Below are positions 12,831-22,409 of a stretch of 45,119 nt of DNA, one piece after another. This DNA is from Candidatus Buchananbacteria bacterium (GTDB lineage Bacteria; Patescibacteriota; Patescibacteriia; Buchananbacterales; UBA6539), in NCBI GenBank assembly GCA_016930315.1, contig JAFGGX010000018.1, positions 1 through 45,119 of the forward strand, given 5' to 3'. A program made the position numbers and the translations under genes. Each line of letters opens with the position of its first letter. The first letter of the stretch is position 1. Below the pieces are notes generated by a model that was not told the origin of the DNA, searched no databases, and worked only from the letters and a program-made list of their open reading frames with translations.

Positions 12831-13385
12831 CTAAAAGATCAGGCTTGCCACATCCCGACTTGTGAGAACTTCGCTCAGAAGGCGGTTTGTTGCACTGTTT
12901 TGGTGCCGGCCATTGGCTTCCTTAGCTTTTTCGATTTTTTTGATCGTAGAGCTAAGCCAGACAAATCTGGCAACCGTTTTCAGGAGGTCTTCAATGGCGT
13001 CTGCTAGGTGTTGAGTCGTGAAACTTTTTGCTCCACAGAAAGGTCCGAATTCGAACTTGAACAGAGTTCCTCCTGCCGGAAACTTCTGAATACCCAGGGC
13101 GTAGGCCTCGCAAGCTGTATGTCTGCTGCCAATAATCGGCAGATTGACGTCGGTTGTCAGGCTGATTGCCTTGAGATCTTGGACTTCACCGAGATTAAGG
13201 CCTTTGATCGGCAGGTCATCGTGCGCTGAGAAGGGGTTGGGGCCACAGAGTCTTTTTAAGTTCAAGATAAGCTGGCCCACAATGTAGCCATCTTCTCTTT
13301 CGCCTTCAAGCTCAATAACCTCGATAGGCCTTGGTCGATTTTGTGGTTGGCGGTACCGTCTGAATTCGAAAGTGAGGCAAAACAT
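12831..13385 (-). CDS. Orphan protein of unknown function in a foreign-looking single-gene unit
   Basis: This is a 184-residue soluble protein with no signal peptide, no transmembrane helix and no motif I recognise. The N-terminal half is beta-strand-like (MFCLTFEFRRYRQPQN, IEVIELEGEREDGYIVGQLI). The C-terminal half is helical and basic. The minus strand is chosen for three reasons. A strong AAAGGAGG Shine-Dalgarno (13393-13400) lies seven bases before the ATG. A promoter and structured leader sit upstream. A GC-rich terminator lies downstream on the same strand. Base composition is visibly richer in G+C than the flanking genes, and codon use differs (many CTG, AAG, GGC, few TTA). Plus-strand ORFs within it are shadows. 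Signs of transfer are strong; function unknown. Confidence 0.65.
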   Translation of the reverse strand: MFCLTFEFRRYRQPQNRPRPIEVIELEGEREDGYIVGQLILNLKRLCGPNPFSAHDDLPIKGLNLGEVQDLKAISLTTDVNLPIIGSRHTACEAYALGIQKFPAGGTLFKFEFGPFCGAKSFTTQHLADAIEDLLKTVARFVWLSSTIKKIEKAKEANGRHQNSATNRLLSEVLTSRDVASLIF

Positions 13386-15522: not shown

Positions 15523-17169
15523 ATGAAGAAACTTTTCAAGTCAAAAATTTTTTGGGGGGTGGTGGTGGTTTTAATCGTTGTGATAATTCTTATTGTCCGA
15601 TCGATAAACTCGGGCACCAAGCAGACCTATGTTACCGAAGAGGCTAAAATTGGTAATATCGTCCAGACAGTCTCGGCTACCGGGCAAATTAAGTCGGCTT
15701 CAGAAATTGAATTGAATTTTAAAAATACTGGTCAATTGGCTGTCTTGAATGTCAAGAAAGGCGATGAAGTAAAAAGTGGCCAGGTTTTAGCTCAGCTTAA
15801 ATCCACTAATTCATCAATTAGTATTACCAGCGCTCAAGCTGATTTGTTAGAAGCACGGGCCAATCTAGACAAAGCGATCGCCGGCGTAACCCAGGAAGAA
15901 ATTGATGTGGCTAAGGCAGCCGTTGATACAGCCAAAACCGATTTAGCTAATGCCGAAAAAACTTATAGCCAAGCAATCGAAAACGCTAAACAGGATGCTT
16001 TAACCAACGTTAATTTGGCTTTAACCAAATCAAGGATTGCTCTGCAGCAAGTTAATGACACTATTATTTATAAAGGCGATCCTGCTAATTTTAATACTTC
16101 TAATCCAAGTCTAGAAATTAAAGTTGAAAATGGTTATCAGGCTGGTTTGATTGCAATCAATGCCGCTAACACTTCTTATCAATCAGCTCAGGCTAGTTTA
16201 TCGGATGTGGCGGTGGACCAGGCCATTAGCGATGGATTATTGGCAATTGATAAGACGGAAACTAATTTGGATGATTTGGGAGATTTGCTCGATTATGTCA
16301 TCACCGACTCAACCATCACTCAAACCGTTTTGGACACGATGAAAACCAGCATTAATACTCAGCGCACCACCATTGATAGTAGTTTAAGTACAGTTCAAAC
16401 CTATAAGCAGAATTTAGCGGATGCAAAGATTACTTATCAAACTAAAGTTTCTGCTGCTCAAAAAAATTTGGAATCAGCCGAAGCGTCTTTGGCCTTAAAA
16501 CAGGCTCCGTCAAGACCGGAAGATATTGCTTTGTATCAAGCTAGGGTAAAGCGCGCGCAAGCTAATCTAAGTTTGGCGCAAGACCAATATAATGACACAA
16601 TTTTGCGCGCGCCGATTGATGGCATAATTACTGAAACCAATTTTTCGGTTGGCGAGCAGACCAATTTGAGTAAACCGGTAATTAAGATGTTAGCCAATCA
16701 AAATTATGAAATTGAAGTTGATATTCCAGAATCTGACATTGCCAAATTAATCGTTGGCGATTCAGCCAGCATCACATTGGATGCTTTTACCGAAGACGAT
16801 ATTTTTGCCGGCACGGTTACCACAATTAATCCGGCTCAAACTGATATTCAAGATGTGGTTTACTATAAAGTGACAGTGATATTTAGCCCAGACCAGTCGG
16901 AAGCAATTATGAATTTGATGGATAAAATTAAACCGGGCATGACTGCCAATGTCGATATTAAAACTGCCGAAAAAGATGATGTATTAATTATTCCATTGCG
17001 AGCAGTCAAAGAAGACGGCGGCATCAAAACAGTCAGCGTTTTAGCAGCCGACAATCAAGTTAAAGATTTCACGGTTGAAACCGGCTTGCGAGGCGACGAA
17101 GGCTTGGTAGAAATCACCAATGGTTTAAAGGCCGGTGATCAAGTTATTACTTATACCAAGAACCAATAA
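15523..17169 (+). CDS. HlyD/MacA-like membrane-fusion (adaptor) protein with a long coiled-coil hairpin
   Basis: A single N-terminal transmembrane anchor (about 9-27) is followed by a beta-barrel/lipoyl half-motif (about 40-95, FKNTGQLAVLNVKKGDEV). A very long Ala/Gln/Asp-rich alpha-helical hairpin follows, at about 98-355. Then come the second lipoyl half (APIDGIITETNFSVGEQTN, about 365-383) and the beta-barrel and membrane-proximal domains to residue 548. This is the order of periplasmic adaptors that work with MacB-type ABC pumps. The hairpin is much longer than in E. coli MacA, and the protein is about 170 residues longer. It is the second gene of the TetR operon, two bases after tetR and four before the ATPase. 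In a cell without a classical outer membrane the hairpin may span the wall or S-layer gap. Confidence 0.88.
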   Translation: MKKLFKSKIFWGVVVVLIVVIILIVRSINSGTKQTYVTEEAKIGNIVQTVSATGQIKSASEIELNFKNTGQLAVLNVKKGDEVKSGQVLAQLKSTNSSISITSAQADLLEARANLDKAIAGVTQEEIDVAKAAVDTAKTDLANAEKTYSQAIENAKQDALTNVNLALTKSRIALQQVNDTIIYKGDPANFNTSNPSLEIKVENGYQAGLIAINAANTSYQSAQASLSDVAVDQAISDGLLAIDKTETNLDDLGDLLDYVITDSTITQTVLDTMKTSINTQRTTIDSSLSTVQTYKQNLADAKITYQTKVSAAQKNLESAEASLALKQAPSRPEDIALYQARVKRAQANLSLAQDQYNDTILRAPIDGIITETNFSVGEQTNLSKPVIKMLANQNYEIEVDIPESDIAKLIVGDSASITLDAFTEDDIFAGTVTTINPAQTDIQDVVYYKVTVIFSPDQSEAIMNLMDKIKPGMTANVDIKTAEKDDVLIIPLRAVKEDGGIKTVSVLAADNQVKDFTVETGLRGDEGLVEITNGLKAGDQVITYTKNQ

Positions 17170-17173
17170 AATT

Positions 17174-17905
17174 ATGGCCGATGAAGTTTTGATTCAAATC
17201 AAAGACCTGAAAAAAGATTACGTAACTGGTGAGGTGGTTACCCCGGTTTTAAAGGGGTTGAATTTCGAAGTTAAAAAAGGAGAATTCCTGGCGATCATGG
17301 GCCCGTCCGGGTCTGGTAAGTCAACTTTAATGCATATCTTGGGTTTTTTGGATAAATTAACTACTGGACAGTATTTGTTTGAAGATCACAACATCGTGGA
17401 ATTTGATGATGATGAATTGGCGCGATTACGCAATGCCGAGATTGGTTTTATTTTTCAGAGTTATAATTTGTTACCAAAAACCACGGTTTTAGATAATGTC
17501 AAACTACCTTTAATTTATGCTAAAAATGTCAGCGCCAAGCAAGCCGACCAACGCGCTACTAAAGCAATTGAATCAGTTGGTTTAACTCATCGAATCCATC
17601 ATTATTCCAATCAACTTTCTGGTGGTGAACAACAACGAGTGGCGATTGCTCGAGCGTTAGTTAATGATCCGGCTGTTGTTTTTGCCGATGAGCCAACCGG
17701 CAATTTGGATTCAAAATCCGGCACTCAAGTCATGAATATTATTCAGGGTTTAAATGATTTAGGTAAAACTGTGATTTTAGTGACTCACGAGCAAGATACC
17801 GCTGAGCACGCTAAAAGAATTATTATGGTTAGAGATGGTTTAATCGTTAGCGACCAGCCGGTCTCACGTCAGCGCTTGGCTTCGGACGGTGAATTAAGAA
17901 AATAG
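17174..17905 (+). CDS. MacB/LolD-type ABC transporter ATP-binding protein
   Basis: This is the nucleotide-binding subunit. Walker A is GPSGSGKST, the Q-loop is [10 protein letters not shown], the ABC signature is [15 protein letters not shown], Walker B is [12 protein letters not shown], and the H-loop is [10 protein letters not shown]. All are intact. The FQSYNLLP and [12 protein letters not shown] segments are typical of the MacB/LolD/FtsE group. I take ATG at 17174 (243 residues), four bases after the adaptor stop. An upstream in-frame ATG at 17135 would overlap the adaptor gene by 35 bases and add a non-family N terminus. It works with the two permeases that follow. Confidence 0.93.
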
Positions 17906-17920
17906 AATTAAGCTAATTCT

Positions 17921-19162
17921 ATGCGCATTGACCAAAGCATTAAAAATAGTTTCAAAAATTTGAGAGCGCATAAATTGCGTTCATTTTTAACGACGTTAGG
18001 GATGGTTATCGGTATTGCTTCGGTGATGTTAATTATGTCAATTGGCGCTGGTGTGCAAAGTTTAATTTTGGGTGAAATCCAAAGTGTTGGGTCTAATTTA
18101 GTTGGGGTTTTACCAGGTGCCTCTGACGAAAATGGTCCGCCGGCTTCAGTGATGGGAGTGGTGGTCACTACTTTAATTTACGACGATGCTAAAGCGATTG
18201 GCCAAAAACAAAATGTACCCCACGCCACGGCTGTATCTTCTTATGTCCGAGGAGCGGGGACGATCCAATATCGAAATCAAGATATCAGTTCAAACTTTAC
18301 CGGCACAACCGCCAGCTATTTGGAAGTTGAAAGCGCTGACGTGGCCGAAGGTCATTTTTTTGATGAATCGGATGAGCGGGGAATTAGTCGAGTGGCAGTT
18401 TTGGGCAGTAGTGTAGCTGACGATTTATTTGCCGGTCAGGATCCAATTGGTAAAGAAATTAAAATTAAAAAGCAACTCTTTAAAGTAATTGGAGTGATGA
18501 AAGAGCGGGGGACGGTTTTTTTTGTTAATCAAGATGACCAGGTTTTTATTCCGTTGGAAACCGCTCAAAAAATTTTATTAGGCATAAATCATCTTAATTT
18601 TATTCGAGTTAAAATTGACAAAGTCGACAATCTCGACCAGTCGGTTGAAGATATAAAAATGACTTTGCGTGAACGTCACGACATCACCGACCCGAGTCAA
18701 GACGATTTTTCGGTTCGCAATACTCAGCAGGCGTTAGATGTCTTAACTCAAGTTACCGACGCTTTAAAGTTTTTTCTTGTTGCTATTGCCGGCATTGCTT
18801 TGTTGGTCGGTGGAATTGGGATTATGAATGTAATGTTAGTGGCCGTTAATGAACGAATTAAAGAGATTGGTTTACGCAAGGCGGTCGGGGCAACCAAAGG
18901 CGGAATTTTGACTCAATTTTTGGTTGAGACAATCGTGGTTTCTTTGGTGGGCGGCGTAATTGGTATTTTAATTGGTTTAATTATTTCTGGTTTAGTGGCT
19001 ATTGTCATTAATTTTTTGGGTTATAATTGGCCATTTGTAGTGCCAATTAGTGCCATTATTTTAGCCAGCAGCTTTTCTTTGGCAGTTGGCTTGATTTTTG
19101 GTCTTTATCCAGCCTGGAAAGCCGCTAAACTTGATCCAATCACCGCTTTAAGATACGAATAA
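17921..19162 (+). CDS. MacB/FtsX-like ABC transporter permease 1
   Basis: The 413-residue permease has an N-terminal transmembrane helix (about 18-43, HKLRSFLTTLGMVIGIASVM). A large extracytoplasmic MacB_PCD domain (about 45-270) follows. The C-terminal FtsX core has three helices and contains GGIGIMNVMLVAV, ERIKEIGLRKAVGA and a closing PAWKAAKLDPITALRYE. These are standard MacB-family features. It is 15 bases after the ATPase gene and three bases before a second, homologous permease, so the transporter is probably a heterodimer. The substrate is unknown; export of peptides, lipids or antibiotics is typical of the family. Confidence 0.92.
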   Translation: MRIDQSIKNSFKNLRAHKLRSFLTTLGMVIGIASVMLIMSIGAGVQSLILGEIQSVGSNLVGVLPGASDENGPPASVMGVVVTTLIYDDAKAIGQKQNVPHATAVSSYVRGAGTIQYRNQDISSNFTGTTASYLEVESADVAEGHFFDESDERGISRVAVLGSSVADDLFAGQDPIGKEIKIKKQLFKVIGVMKERGTVFFVNQDDQVFIPLETAQKILLGINHLNFIRVKIDKVDNLDQSVEDIKMTLRERHDITDPSQDDFSVRNTQQALDVLTQVTDALKFFLVAIAGIALLVGGIGIMNVMLVAVNERIKEIGLRKAVGATKGGILTQFLVETIVVSLVGGVIGILIGLIISGLVAIVINFLGYNWPFVVPISAIILASSFSLAVGLIFGLYPAWKAAKLDPITALRYE

Positions 19163-19165
19163 TTT

Positions 19166-20413
19166 ATGAATTTAGTTACTCTAAAAATTGCCTTAAGAGC
19201 CTTGTCTAGTCATAAAAGCCGGACGTTTTTAACCGTTTTGGGCATTGTGATTGGGATTGCCGCAGTGGTAGCAGTGATGTCAGCCGGTCAGGGAATTAAA
19301 GCATTGGTGGTTGATCAGGTTGAATCTTTTGGTTCCGATTTGATCCAAACCGAAATCAAAGTGCCGAGCGCCAAAAAAAATTCTTCGGAAAATGCTTTTG
19401 GTATTGCTAGCGGAATTGAAGTAACGACTTTAAAACTTTCTGATCGCGACGCTATTATGAAGTTGCCAAATATCAAAGACAGTTATGCTGGTTCAACCGG
19501 TCAGGAATTAGTTTCTTACAATGGGCAGAACCAGCAAGCATTGCTTTATGGCGTTTCGGCTACGTTTATTAATATTGACAAAGGCCAAGTGGAGACGGGT
19601 CGGTTTTTTACCAATGAAGAAGATAATGGTCTGGCTAATGTCGCGGTGATTGGTCAAAAAGTTAAAGATAAATTATTTAATAATGGGCAGGCGATTGATA
19701 AATTGATTAAAATTGGCAAGCAAAAATTTCGGGTGATTGGCGTAATGGAAAAAAGGGGAGCGACTTTTGGTTTTGATATGGATAACATGATTTATATTCC
19801 GGTTCAGACCCTGCAGAAAAAAATTATGGGCGTTGACTATATTATGTTTATTACCTCTCAGGTTAGAAATCCGGATTTAATTGATCAAACCGTTGCCGAA
19901 ATGGAGCAGCTGTTGCGCGAGCGCCACGACATCACCGACCCGGATAAAGAAGATTTTGCCGTCACTTCGATTGCCGAAGCGTTGGATATGTTAAATACAA
20001 TTTTTTGGGCAATCTCGGTTTTGTTAATTGCCGTGGCGGGAATTTCGTTAGTGGTCGGTGGGATTGGGATTATGAATATTATGTATGTGTCGGTAATGGA
20101 GCGAACTTACGAAATTGGTTTGCGCAAATCAGTGGGTGCGACTAACAATAATATTTTGTTTCAATTCTTGTGGGAAGCAGTGATTGTTACTTTCTTGGGT
20201 GCAATCATTGGGGTTTTGATTGGAGTGCTGTTTGCGTGGCTGGTTTCGGTGGTGGCTACATCTCAAGGTTTTGCCTGGAAGTTTGTAGTTTTGCCGTCGT
20301 CTTTAGCCTTAGCCAGCGGCGTAGCCATTGCGATTGGTTTATCGTTTGGAGTTTTTCCAGCCAAAACAGCGGCTAACATGGATCCAGTAACGGCCTTGAG
20401 GTATAATCGATAG
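19166..20413 (+). CDS. MacB/FtsX-like ABC transporter permease 2
   Basis: This is a paralogue of the preceding permease with the same layout: helix 1 at about 17-40 (HKSRTFLTVLGIVIGIAAVV), a MacB_PCD domain, then the FtsX core with GGIGIMNIMYVSV, ERTYEIGLRKSVGA and the terminal PVTALRYNR. The two share near-identical stretches such as LRERHDITDP near the end of the PCD, so they arose by duplication but have since diverged, mainly in the extracytoplasmic domain. It is the last gene of the operon and is followed by a hairpin terminator at 20446. A short 12-base direct repeat (AATCTCAAAAAT) occurs right after its stop. Confidence 0.92.
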   Translation: MNLVTLKIALRALSSHKSRTFLTVLGIVIGIAAVVAVMSAGQGIKALVVDQVESFGSDLIQTEIKVPSAKKNSSENAFGIASGIEVTTLKLSDRDAIMKLPNIKDSYAGSTGQELVSYNGQNQQALLYGVSATFINIDKGQVETGRFFTNEEDNGLANVAVIGQKVKDKLFNNGQAIDKLIKIGKQKFRVIGVMEKRGATFGFDMDNMIYIPVQTLQKKIMGVDYIMFITSQVRNPDLIDQTVAEMEQLLRERHDITDPDKEDFAVTSIAEALDMLNTIFWAISVLLIAVAGISLVVGGIGIMNIMYVSVMERTYEIGLRKSVGATNNNILFQFLWEAVIVTFLGAIIGVLIGVLFAWLVSVVATSQGFAWKFVVLPSSLALASGVAIAIGLSFGVFPAKTAANMDPVTALRYNR

Positions 20414-20445
20414 AATCTCAAAAATTAAATCTCAAAAATATGGTG

Positions 20446-20469
20446 TCTCGCTAGTCGCGGGATTTTTTT
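20446..20469 (+). terminator. Terminator of the TetR-efflux operon
   Basis: TCTCGC (20446-20451) pairs with GCGGGA (20457-20462), one G-T pair, followed by seven T. Confidence 0.75.
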
Positions 20470-20472
20470 AGT

Positions 20473-20501
20473 TTGACAAATTTAGCGAAAAATAGTAAGT
20501 T
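20473..20501 (+). promoter_or_regulatory. Promoter of the second orphan single-gene unit
   Basis: A consensus TTGACA (20473-20478), a 17-base spacer, then TAAGTT (20496-20501). It starts four bases after the previous terminator's T run. Confidence 0.5.
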
Positions 20502-20554
20502 TTCGGTGGTTCTTTGATGTATGAACAAACCCTTTTAGCATAAGGAGAAGTGTC

Positions 20555-21190
20555 ATGGATCCGAGAAGGGAACGTTGTTTTAAATCTTTTAGGGCAACCT
20601 GTATTCATGTGTTGCCTCGTGTTATCGCTGAGCAGGCTGATGAGCCAAGCACTTGGAGAAGACTCAATCAGGTTAGCGAGTTTGGCCTAATCAACTTCTG
20701 TTGTTTTGCTTATCTTGCCACCCAAGAGTCTTTTTACCGTATTGTATTCGGGCAAAAAATCCTTCAGCCGGCCTTGCGCTCTTTCGTGCCGAGAATGGAT
20801 GCAACGGATTGGTGTGAGTGCTATCGATACGCGATACAACAAGCCATAGCCGACGCCTTGAGTGCGTGCACTGATGTGCCAGAGGATTGGGGCGATACTC
20901 AGAACCAATTCAAGATTGACATGTATTGCAGTGCTCTTAGTCTGCTTCTACTGTGCTTGCACGATGGTTTCTTTGAAACACCTCCAGCATCAAAAGTGCT
21001 CGGATTGATTAGTCGTGGCGAATTAACCCCAGATGCGCTTGATGTGGGGTTCAAAGAAGCTCTCACCGCTGATCATCTGGCCGGCATGTTGGGCGTTGAA
21101 AGGCCGGGAGGTAGGGAGAGGATCAATATGGCTACGGCTTTTTTTGTTTTGTTAGCTGGAAGTGGTGATCATGAAATCCAAGGGCCTTGA
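20555..21190 (+). CDS. Orphan 211-residue protein of unknown function with a strong Shine-Dalgarno
   Basis: The start is fixed by AAGGAG (20542-20547) seven bases before the ATG, a clean Shine-Dalgarno of a kind rare in this window. The product is soluble and mostly helical, with no signal peptide. It is unusually rich in Cys and Trp for its surroundings (for example INFCCFAYLATQESFYRIVF, DWCECYRYAIQQAIADALSA). It ends in a small Gly-rich segment (ERPGGRERINMATAFFVLLA). I do not recognise a family. G+C and codon choice (CTT, CTG, CGT, CAG, GCC) differ visibly from neighbouring genes, which favour TTA, AAA and AAT. It has its own promoter and two stacked hairpins after the stop, so it forms an independent unit. 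Horizontal origin is likely; function unknown. Confidence 0.7.
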   Translation: MDPRRERCFKSFRATCIHVLPRVIAEQADEPSTWRRLNQVSEFGLINFCCFAYLATQESFYRIVFGQKILQPALRSFVPRMDATDWCECYRYAIQQAIADALSACTDVPEDWGDTQNQFKIDMYCSALSLLLLCLHDGFFETPPASKVLGLISRGELTPDALDVGFKEALTADHLAGMLGVERPGGRERINMATAFFVLLAGSGDHEIQGP

Positions 21191-21206
21191 TGCCCCGCTT
21201 TCGTAT

Positions 21207-21228
21207 TTAGAGTCAATAGCAACTCTAA
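21207..21228 (+). other. First of two hairpins after the orphan gene
   Basis: A perfect 7-bp stem TTAGAGT/ACTCTAA encloses an 8-base loop, three bases before the GC-rich terminator. Confidence 0.6.
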
Positions 21229-21231
21229 AAA

Positions 21232-21264
21232 ACCCGCGTCTTTTATTTTGGCGCGGGTGTTTCT
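21232..21264 (+). terminator. GC-rich terminator of orphan unit 2
   Basis: ACCCGCGTC (21232-21240) pairs with GGCGCGGGT (21250-21258) across a T-rich 9-base loop, followed by GTTTCTTTTA. Stem, loop style and tail are nearly identical to the terminator at 21802. Confidence 0.85.
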
Positions 21265-21279
21265 TTTATTATAAAATGG

Positions 21280-21309
21280 TTGACAAAAATATTAATAATA
21301 TGCTAAATA
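21280..21309 (+). promoter_or_regulatory. Promoter of the third orphan single-gene unit
   Basis: TTGACA (21280-21285), 18 bases, then TAAATA (21304-21309) preceded by TGC (extended -10 style). It lies directly after the previous unit's terminator. Confidence 0.5.
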
Positions 21310-21349
21310 TATGATGAATTCCAATTCAGAGAGTGAGGTGAAAAGCAAG

Positions 21350-21748
21350 ATGAGAAGAGCTAAAGAATCAAAGCGGAGTGTGTTGACAGAGCGAAATAAT
21401 CTGACAGAGCGAAAGGCGGGTCAGGCCAGAAAAGCAATTGCTGTCCTTGAGCAAACTTTTACATGTAAAGTCTTGTACCTGCCGACAAATGATCTCAATG
21501 AGAATCCTGTAGTTGCGATTTCTGTTCTGAAGAAAGGGTCAGAATTCACGCACTCAGATTTGGAAAAAATTGGTACGGTAGTTGGTGGCTTGGTGTGCGA
21601 CGACGGATTCATTATTGTGATGCATGGGGAAAAGGCCTTCCTTGGCCCTGACCCCTGTGACGCAGATGGGTCCAAGCACAACGGCGAAGTGATCAGTTAT
21701 TATAAAGTTGAATATGATCTCGAGCTCACCGCCCCAGCCGTCGCGTGA
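21350..21748 (+). CDS. Orphan 132-residue protein of unknown function
   Basis: ATG at 21350 is chosen because GAGGTG (21335-21340) sits nine bases upstream. The earlier in-frame ATG at 21311 overlaps the -10 box and would be inside or before the transcription start. The product is small and soluble. Its N terminus is very basic (MRRAKESKRSVLTERNNLTE), followed by an alpha/beta-looking domain (TFTCKVLYLPTNDLNENPVV, then VGGLVCDDGFIIVMHG). No motif or family is recognised. As with the other two orphan units, G+C is high for the window, the gene is alone between its own promoter and a CCCGCG-type terminator, and codon use is atypical. The convergent gene at 21834 begins its stop codon inside the terminator tail. 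Confidence 0.65.
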   Translation: MRRAKESKRSVLTERNNLTERKAGQARKAIAVLEQTFTCKVLYLPTNDLNENPVVAISVLKKGSEFTHSDLEKIGTVVGGLVCDDGFIIVMHGEKAFLGPDPCDADGSKHNGEVISYYKVEYDLELTAPAVA

Positions 21749-21767
21749 CCGTCGACAGCATCCAAGA

Positions 21768-21782
21768 AGCGCAATGTGCGCT
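21768..21782 (+). other. Small hairpin before the orphan unit 3 terminator
   Basis: AGCGCA/TGCGCT arms enclose a 3-base loop in the 3' untranslated region. The position parallels the extra hairpin of orphan unit 2 at 21207. Confidence 0.45.
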
Positions 21783-21801
21783 GACGTCCTTTGGACATAA
21801 A

Positions 21802-21836
21802 CCCGCGTCTTGTTTTTTGGCGCGGGCTTTCTTTTA
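21802..21836. terminator. GC-rich terminator shared by convergent genes
   Basis: CCCGCGTC (21802-21809) pairs with GGCGCGGG (21819-21826) across TTGTTTTTT, followed by CTTTCTTTTA. It is almost the same sequence as 21231-21264. The minus-strand exonuclease ends in its tail, so it may terminate both genes. Confidence 0.85.
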
Positions 21837-22409
21837 CCACGGCATTGTTAAGTTGATTGTGGTTTCTTTTTTTTCTTCCCAAGCGGCAGTTTCAATCGGG
21901 AATTGTTTAATTTCATCTAAAATTTTATAGCGTAAGAATTTGTTGTTGAGGGCAAATTCATAAATCTCTTTGGTGATTTTTACATCTTGCTGGCAGTATT
22001 GTTTGATTTTTTCAATCTCGCCATTTTTATACCAAGTAATTGCATCCAAGCCATTACCGCTTTTTTTTATTCCAAGAGTCCCGTCAGCTACCGAATCCAA
22101 ACGGATTTTGTGACCCAAGGATTTTCTGATTTCTTCCAATAAATCTAGACTTTTGATTTTGGTTAAGTCGCCCGGATAATATTTATTTAAAATCGGAATA
22201 TCAAAATAATCGGAATTATATCCGATAATTAAATCCGTGTTTTCTAAAAGCGGCCAAAGTTTATTTAATTCGTTTTCCAGAAAAGTAAAATATTGATCGG
22301 TTTGGTAGTCGTAAACAACCAACAAAGAAATATCTAAAAGTTTAGGTTCGTTTTTACCAACTTGCTGGAAAGTATTTTTTGTTTCAATATCTAAAACAAC
22401 TTTTTTCAT
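21834..22409 (-). CDS. DEDDy-type RNase H-like 3'-5' exonuclease
   Basis: This 191-residue protein has a DnaQ/RNase H-like fold similar to YprB-type and PolB-type exonuclease domains. ExoI is LDIETK (Asp7, Glu9). ExoII is IIGYNSDYFDIPIL with its conserved Asp. ExoIII is YCQQDVKIT, the Y-x3-D pattern of DEDDy enzymes. The middle part (LDLLEEIRKSLGHKIRLDSV) is also typical. All four acidic ligands appear present, so it should be an active nuclease. DNA or RNA as substrate is not determined. The start codon follows a minus-strand TATATA at 22420-22415 by only five bases, suggesting a leaderless mRNA. It is convergent with orphan unit 3. Confidence 0.82.
   Translation of the reverse strand: MKKVVLDIETKNTFQQVGKNEPKLLDISLLVVYDYQTDQYFTFLENELNKLWPLLENTDLIIGYNSDYFDIPILNKYYPGDLTKIKSLDLLEEIRKSLGHKIRLDSVADGTLGIKKSGNGLDAITWYKNGEIEKIKQYCQQDVKITKEIYEFALNNKFLRYKILDEIKQFPIETAAWEEKKETTINLTMPW

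Follow-up and report, generated by a model that had tools for sequence, protein, structure and literature searches.

Two adjacent genes in a genome of Candidatus Buchananbacteria (Patescibacteriota) each form a compact unit with its own expression signals, and both are ordinary members of a large, genome-wide class of such genes. We consider it likely that the pair belongs to a lineage-specific accessory set that was laterally acquired as expression-autonomous units and numbers approximately 70-80, or 10% of all genes encoding 100 aa or more. The window, meaning the whole stretch of 45,119 nucleotides that was analysed (GenBank assembly GCA_016930315.1, JAFGGX010000018.1), is one contig of a genome of 897 kb in 53 contigs, which is 98.8% complete.

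Anatomy and setting of the two units

The pair is located between the operon of a MacB-type ABC transporter (15523-20413, identified by Pfam) and a predicted 3'-5' exonuclease encoded on the opposite strand (21834-22409). Its features, together with a third such unit found elsewhere in the window, are as follows.

20473-20501, + strand: promoter-like site of unit 1 (-35 TTGACA at 20473-20478, 17-nt spacer, -10 TAAGTT at 20496-20501)
20542-20547, + strand: Shine-Dalgarno (SD) sequence AAGGAG of ORF1, 7 nt upstream of the ATG, from the sequence and SD scoring
20555-21190, + strand: ORF1, 211 aa
21206-21229, + strand: small hairpin 3' of the ORF1 stop, predicted fold
21230-21268, + strand: terminator of unit 1, stem 21232-21258 and C-interrupted T tail; copy 1 of the direct repeat
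21280-21309, + strand: promoter-like site of unit 2 (-35 TTGACA at 21280-21285, -10 TAAATA at 21304-21309), by consensus resemblance only
21335-21340, + strand: SD sequence GAGGTG of ORF2, read from the sequence
21350-21748, + strand: ORF2, 132 aa (145 aa from an alternative in-frame ATG at 21311)
21768-21782 and 21786-21796, + strand: two small hairpins 3' of the ORF2 stop, predicted fold
21799-21836, + strand: terminator of unit 2, stem 21802-21826; copy 2 of the direct repeat
12831-13385, - strand: third unit, 184 aa, with SD AGAAAGGAGG, a GC-rich terminator and codon z of -8.7; a Pfam search matched no family

The first-pass annotation of this DNA had described the pair as foreign-looking modular single-gene units, and much of that description is borne out. 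A TTGACA promoter-like site and a strong SD can be read directly before each gene, the unit 1 promoter being recognised by its resemblance to the consensus and absent among the promoter-scan matches listed. Additional hairpins are indeed present after both stops in the predicted folds. We took ATG 21350, the start proposed previously, as that of ORF2 because the SD points to it. The higher G+C and unusual codon use that had been noted were confirmed by scanning both properties: G+C is 0.48 in ORF1 and 0.46 in ORF2 (91st-93rd percentile; native mean 0.37), and the codon z of -5.5 and -6.4 falls among the lowest 8-9% of genes.

The genes have no recognisable product, as had been supposed: neither has a Pfam or NCBIfam family or a credible relative in the PDB. 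No homologue was found in six genomes of the same family, and 380 other genomes of the taxonomic class gave chance-level matches only; nor does ORF1 occur in the 379 other genomes sampled from the phylum, a set that overlaps the class sample. The weak matches within the class (E of 0.002-0.006 per genome) are expected by chance over 381 genomes; on inspection those of ORF1 were short pieces or lay in an odd reading frame, and that of ORF2 fell inside a protein resembling an HD-domain enzyme. Searches with tblastn against 50,697 phage and 72,556 plasmid records returned no match for either gene, nor did IMG/VR, and a PADLOC match to ORF2 (E of 0.031) is not meaningful. Structure models were unusable (mean pLDDT 48.7 for ORF1 and 45.3 for ORF2); ORF1 is helical in its low-confidence, single-sequence model.

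A genome-wide class of genes with the same signals

We analysed 895 kb of the genome, in which ORFs of at least 100 aa were called by a simple home-made script, and defined a class of genes whose codons deviate strongly and whose G+C exceeds 0.42; it comprises 82 of the 775 genes. (One contig, C8, also L137, of 2905 bases, has a computed G+C of 0.000 and was presumably read as N.) An SD match of at least 6 nt precedes 52 of the 82 class genes (63%) compared to 44 of 607 native genes (7%; p 2e-30), where each gene is scored by its best match among the possible starts within the first 50 codons, which raises the background in all classes. GC-stem terminators follow 42 of the 82 (51%) and 26 of the 607 (4%; p 1e-26), and both signals occur together in 31 class genes but in a single native gene, although in part of the tests the class was itself defined by codon deviation. 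Among strong terminators, a C lies within the first six bases of the T tail in 82% of those of the class and 32% of those of native genes. These figures agree with the earlier statements that native genes mostly lack SD sequences and mostly end in AT-rich hairpins, and they give the broader idea of modular foreign genes a firmer basis than was first claimed for it.

Class genes are clustered, with 22 adjacent pairs where 8.0 +/- 2.5 are expected, and the stems of their terminators differ from one gene to another. When 64 class proteins were scanned, matches were found in 41 Pfam families, including one member each of LeuA, DAHP synthase, OMP decarboxylase, a KhpA-like KH protein, DegT aminotransferase, SPFH and radical SAM. 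The class is mixed, in that some of its genes are metabolic and have distant homologues in G004, the one same-family genome that was available complete.

Several loci of the class display features of their own. At L186:3522-5427, tandem class genes encode proteins that are 32% identical, with very similar promoters and leaders and somewhat similar terminators, and are perhaps a tandem duplicate that diverged fast. At L156:16360-17014, the leader element GTTC.TG.TCTTGG.GACT.AAACGCTCTTT precedes each of two tandem class genes. The mini-hairpin AGTCCTTTGGACT of the 3' regions was considered as a shared element and rejected, its core being present once in the genome. One protein family, F1 (L193:10945-11685 and L179:19333-19935, with relatives L251-L279), is present in 58 of 381 genomes of the taxonomic class in up to seven copies and is a target of diversity-generating retroelements (DGRs): a variable repeat of 119-125 bp in L256, L260, L267 and L274 differs from a nearby template at template adenines only (15/15, 12/12, 9/9 and 18/18). 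A CPR-restricted DGR clade is already known (PMC8144416). Dispersed palindromes with the core GTTCCACGTGGAAC lie near the DGR-type gene at L193:10777-12695, and similar copies are found in G004 at C3:15368-15445.

Comparison with related genomes

Only 10% of class genes have a homologue in G004, compared to 78% of native genes. In a test that is independent of codons, SD and GC-rich terminator coincide in 30 of 262 genes without a G004 homologue and in 6 of 514 shared genes (p 5e-10); the reciprocal test in G004 gave 13 of 286 unshared and 8 of 554 shared genes (p 0.009). Among 131 lineage-specific genes with native-like codons, only 5% have an SD of at least 6 nt, and therefore youth or fast evolution alone is insufficient to account for the signals. 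In three other genomes, too, a strong SD is more frequent among genes not shared with the host.

The first-pass annotation had called for comparison of orthologous loci, which gave clean empty sites in G004 for several other units but not for the pair itself. Native genes that flank units here are 0-149 bp apart in G004, according to simple gene calls, at L132 (6210-6962), L133 (15439-16293) and L184 (13374-14177), and likewise around a tandem pair on L156 and another on L176. Contamination of the bin therefore cannot explain those units, and the empty sites show either gain here or clean loss there. At the pair, the exonuclease is 66% identical in G004 and has a different neighbour, while relatives of the ABC transporter are located elsewhere; hence the flanks are rearranged and an exact empty site is lacking. 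Across conserved intervals, again with simple gene calls, units also occur in G004 at 4 of 15 that bear a unit here and at 14 of 279 others (p 0.009). Three of the four co-occupied intervals hold unrelated proteins and one perhaps a diverged orthologue.

Patescibacteria of higher G+C were considered as a simple source of the SD style and rejected, since genes that they share with the host are also without a strong SD. Two such genomes of the taxonomic class (57% and 65% G+C), sampled in part (200 and 141 kb) with simple gene calls, have an SD of at least 6 nt in 7% of genes shared with the host and in 24% and 16% of unshared genes, respectively.

The twin terminators

The two GC-rich terminators, previously reported as nearly the same, form a 39-nt direct repeat of 89.7% identity. 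Their hairpins have predicted energies of -17.3 kcal/mol (unit 1) and -15.6 kcal/mol (unit 2), with z of -4.5 and -4.3 relative to shuffled sequences. The pattern of the 25-nt core occurs twice in the window, where the expectation is 0.00, and the pair is the most similar of 3,321 comparisons of 3' ends within the gene class, scoring 55 against a 99.9th percentile of 39.

It had been suggested that the terminator is reused as a common junction, and a search for it across the genome and relatives had been set beforehand as the check. No third copy emerged: there is none with up to three mismatches elsewhere in the genome, and the exact variable-loop pattern is absent from six family relatives, 380 other genomes of the class and IMG/VR. 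The matches listed in a collection-wide scan come mainly from G+C-rich organisms and are chance-like; one terminator pattern used in scanning describes a single copy of the repeat and not both. As a general junction the idea fails because the sequence occurs only in this pair, other units having each its own stem. The only case that links two genomes speaks against it as well. At L199:3643-4040 and L251:2199-2600 (G004 and G005, two genera of the same family), the proteins are 41% identical over 129 aa, the terminator is identical and the 3' UTR matches at 104 of 110 positions, but conservation runs on beyond the terminator, with 162 of 175 positions identical further downstream.

Most likely, then, the shared terminator of the pair is a one-off local duplication and not evidence for a special gene-moving system. 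The near-identical copies that flank unit 2 would record a single local event, most probably one in which either the terminator was duplicated or unit 2 recombined into the unit 1 terminator site.

Origin of the units

Neither ORF1 nor ORF2 has relatives, so the case for their lateral transfer is built on composition, signals and absence from related genomes, and these same properties suggest that the class as a whole probably originated by transfer. Against transfer stands the donor search through class, phylum, phage, plasmid and viral sets, which found no relatives of ORF1 or ORF2; loss in relatives would equally leave empty sites, and the mixed make-up of the class and the rearranged flanks of the pair also count against it. 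In this reading a unit brings its own promoter and leader, a strong SD, a gene of higher G+C and a unidirectional GC-rich terminator whose T tail is interrupted by a C; units lie between conserved native genes, singly or as short tandems. A full set of expression signals would let a gene work at any landing place, and its own terminator would insulate the neighbours from read-through; presumably the proteins are expressed. The likeliest route would be that short DNA is taken up and then recombined into intergenic sites. This is probably the simplest route, because individual gene transfers are reported to be frequent among Patescibacteria, with horizontal transfer accounting for up to 13% of genome length (PMC12455944), and natural transformation has been demonstrated in Saccharibacteria (PMC10633639).

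We regard it as rather unlikely that the class is native and under another expression regime, with fast-evolving, strongly translated genes in which selection explains SD and G+C and homologues are missed. The unit at L161 (8138-8542) may be a diverged orthologue of the one that occupies the corresponding site in G004 (z of 2.7), and family F1, as a DGR target, diversifies fast, both of which accord with native genes; but the G004 sites are truly empty at gaps of 0-149 bp, the three co-occupied sites hold unrelated proteins, and strong SDs are rare in the 131 lineage-specific genes with native-like codons. A broader view is that Patescibacteria of this taxonomic class share a mobile pool of autonomous single-gene units, which come and go at preferred intergenic sites by a common mechanism and stand out, by strong SDs and GC-rich terminators, from a core genome in which SDs are scarce; this we think improbable.

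A dedicated cassette-moving system, with junctions provided by terminators or other 3' elements, is highly unlikely. Terminator direct repeats flank unit 2, units cluster, and some intergenic sites are occupied in two genomes (the 4 of 15 intervals above), as such a system might produce, but the terminator sequence is confined to the pair and there is neither an attC-like structure nor any edge repeat; searching the outer edges for terminal inverted repeats or a target-site duplication yielded only poly-A/T matches of 5-7 nt. The earlier observation that no attC-like site, integrase or transposase is visible holds: a simple pattern test for RYYYAAC...GTTRRRY with inner complementarity gave 0 matches, both in 20401-21900 and across the window, and the Pfam families listed for the window (for part of it, 25 of 38) include neither enzyme. 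Phages often carry compact, homologue-less units with strong signals, and a prophage or plasmid, since decayed, might have carried both genes. This is very improbable: ORF1 and ORF2 match no phage, plasmid or IMG/VR record, just 16 PHROG families were matched among 64 class proteins, and no phage structural or replication genes adjoin the pair.

Relation to known systems

Integron cassettes have attC at the 3' end, depend on an IntI integrase, and are promoterless, being transcribed from an external Pc promoter. The units resemble them as single genes of mostly unknown function that stand side by side, but differ in having their own terminator and promoter-like site (the latter by consensus only), in being without an attC-like site, and in being scattered over the genome rather than held in one array. 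Unlike a transposon or insertion sequence, the pair shows no terminal inverted repeats or target-site duplication, and no transposase is found in the Pfam listing of the window. ORFans and other genes of foreign composition in bacteria are characterised by a lack of relatives, deviant composition and absence from related genomes. The class is like them in all three respects, but its G+C lies above that of the host and not below, and it carries SDs, which are mostly lacking in the inherited genes. By deviant composition and absence from six same-family genomes, the pair fits a laterally acquired accessory gene.

Single-gene transfer in Patescibacteria is already known. The transfers and genomic islands described in PMC12455944 similarly involve acquired genes of varied function that are dispersed through small genomes; that study differs in relying on similarity together with tree reconciliation, and its text does not contain the word 'codon'. 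As far as we searched, it describes no pairing of strong SD with GC-rich terminator as a shared mark of acquired genes. A limited literature search turned up no account of the SD/terminator dichotomy, nor any open paper that combines Patescibacteria, Shine-Dalgarno and codon usage.

If these signals do separate acquired from inherited genes, gene gain could be mapped without donors or trees, which would serve the study of the uncultured and mostly symbiotic Patescibacteria. It would then become possible to ask whether the two gene sets are handled differently by ribosomes, and the units would show which expression signals function together as a self-contained whole in such cells.
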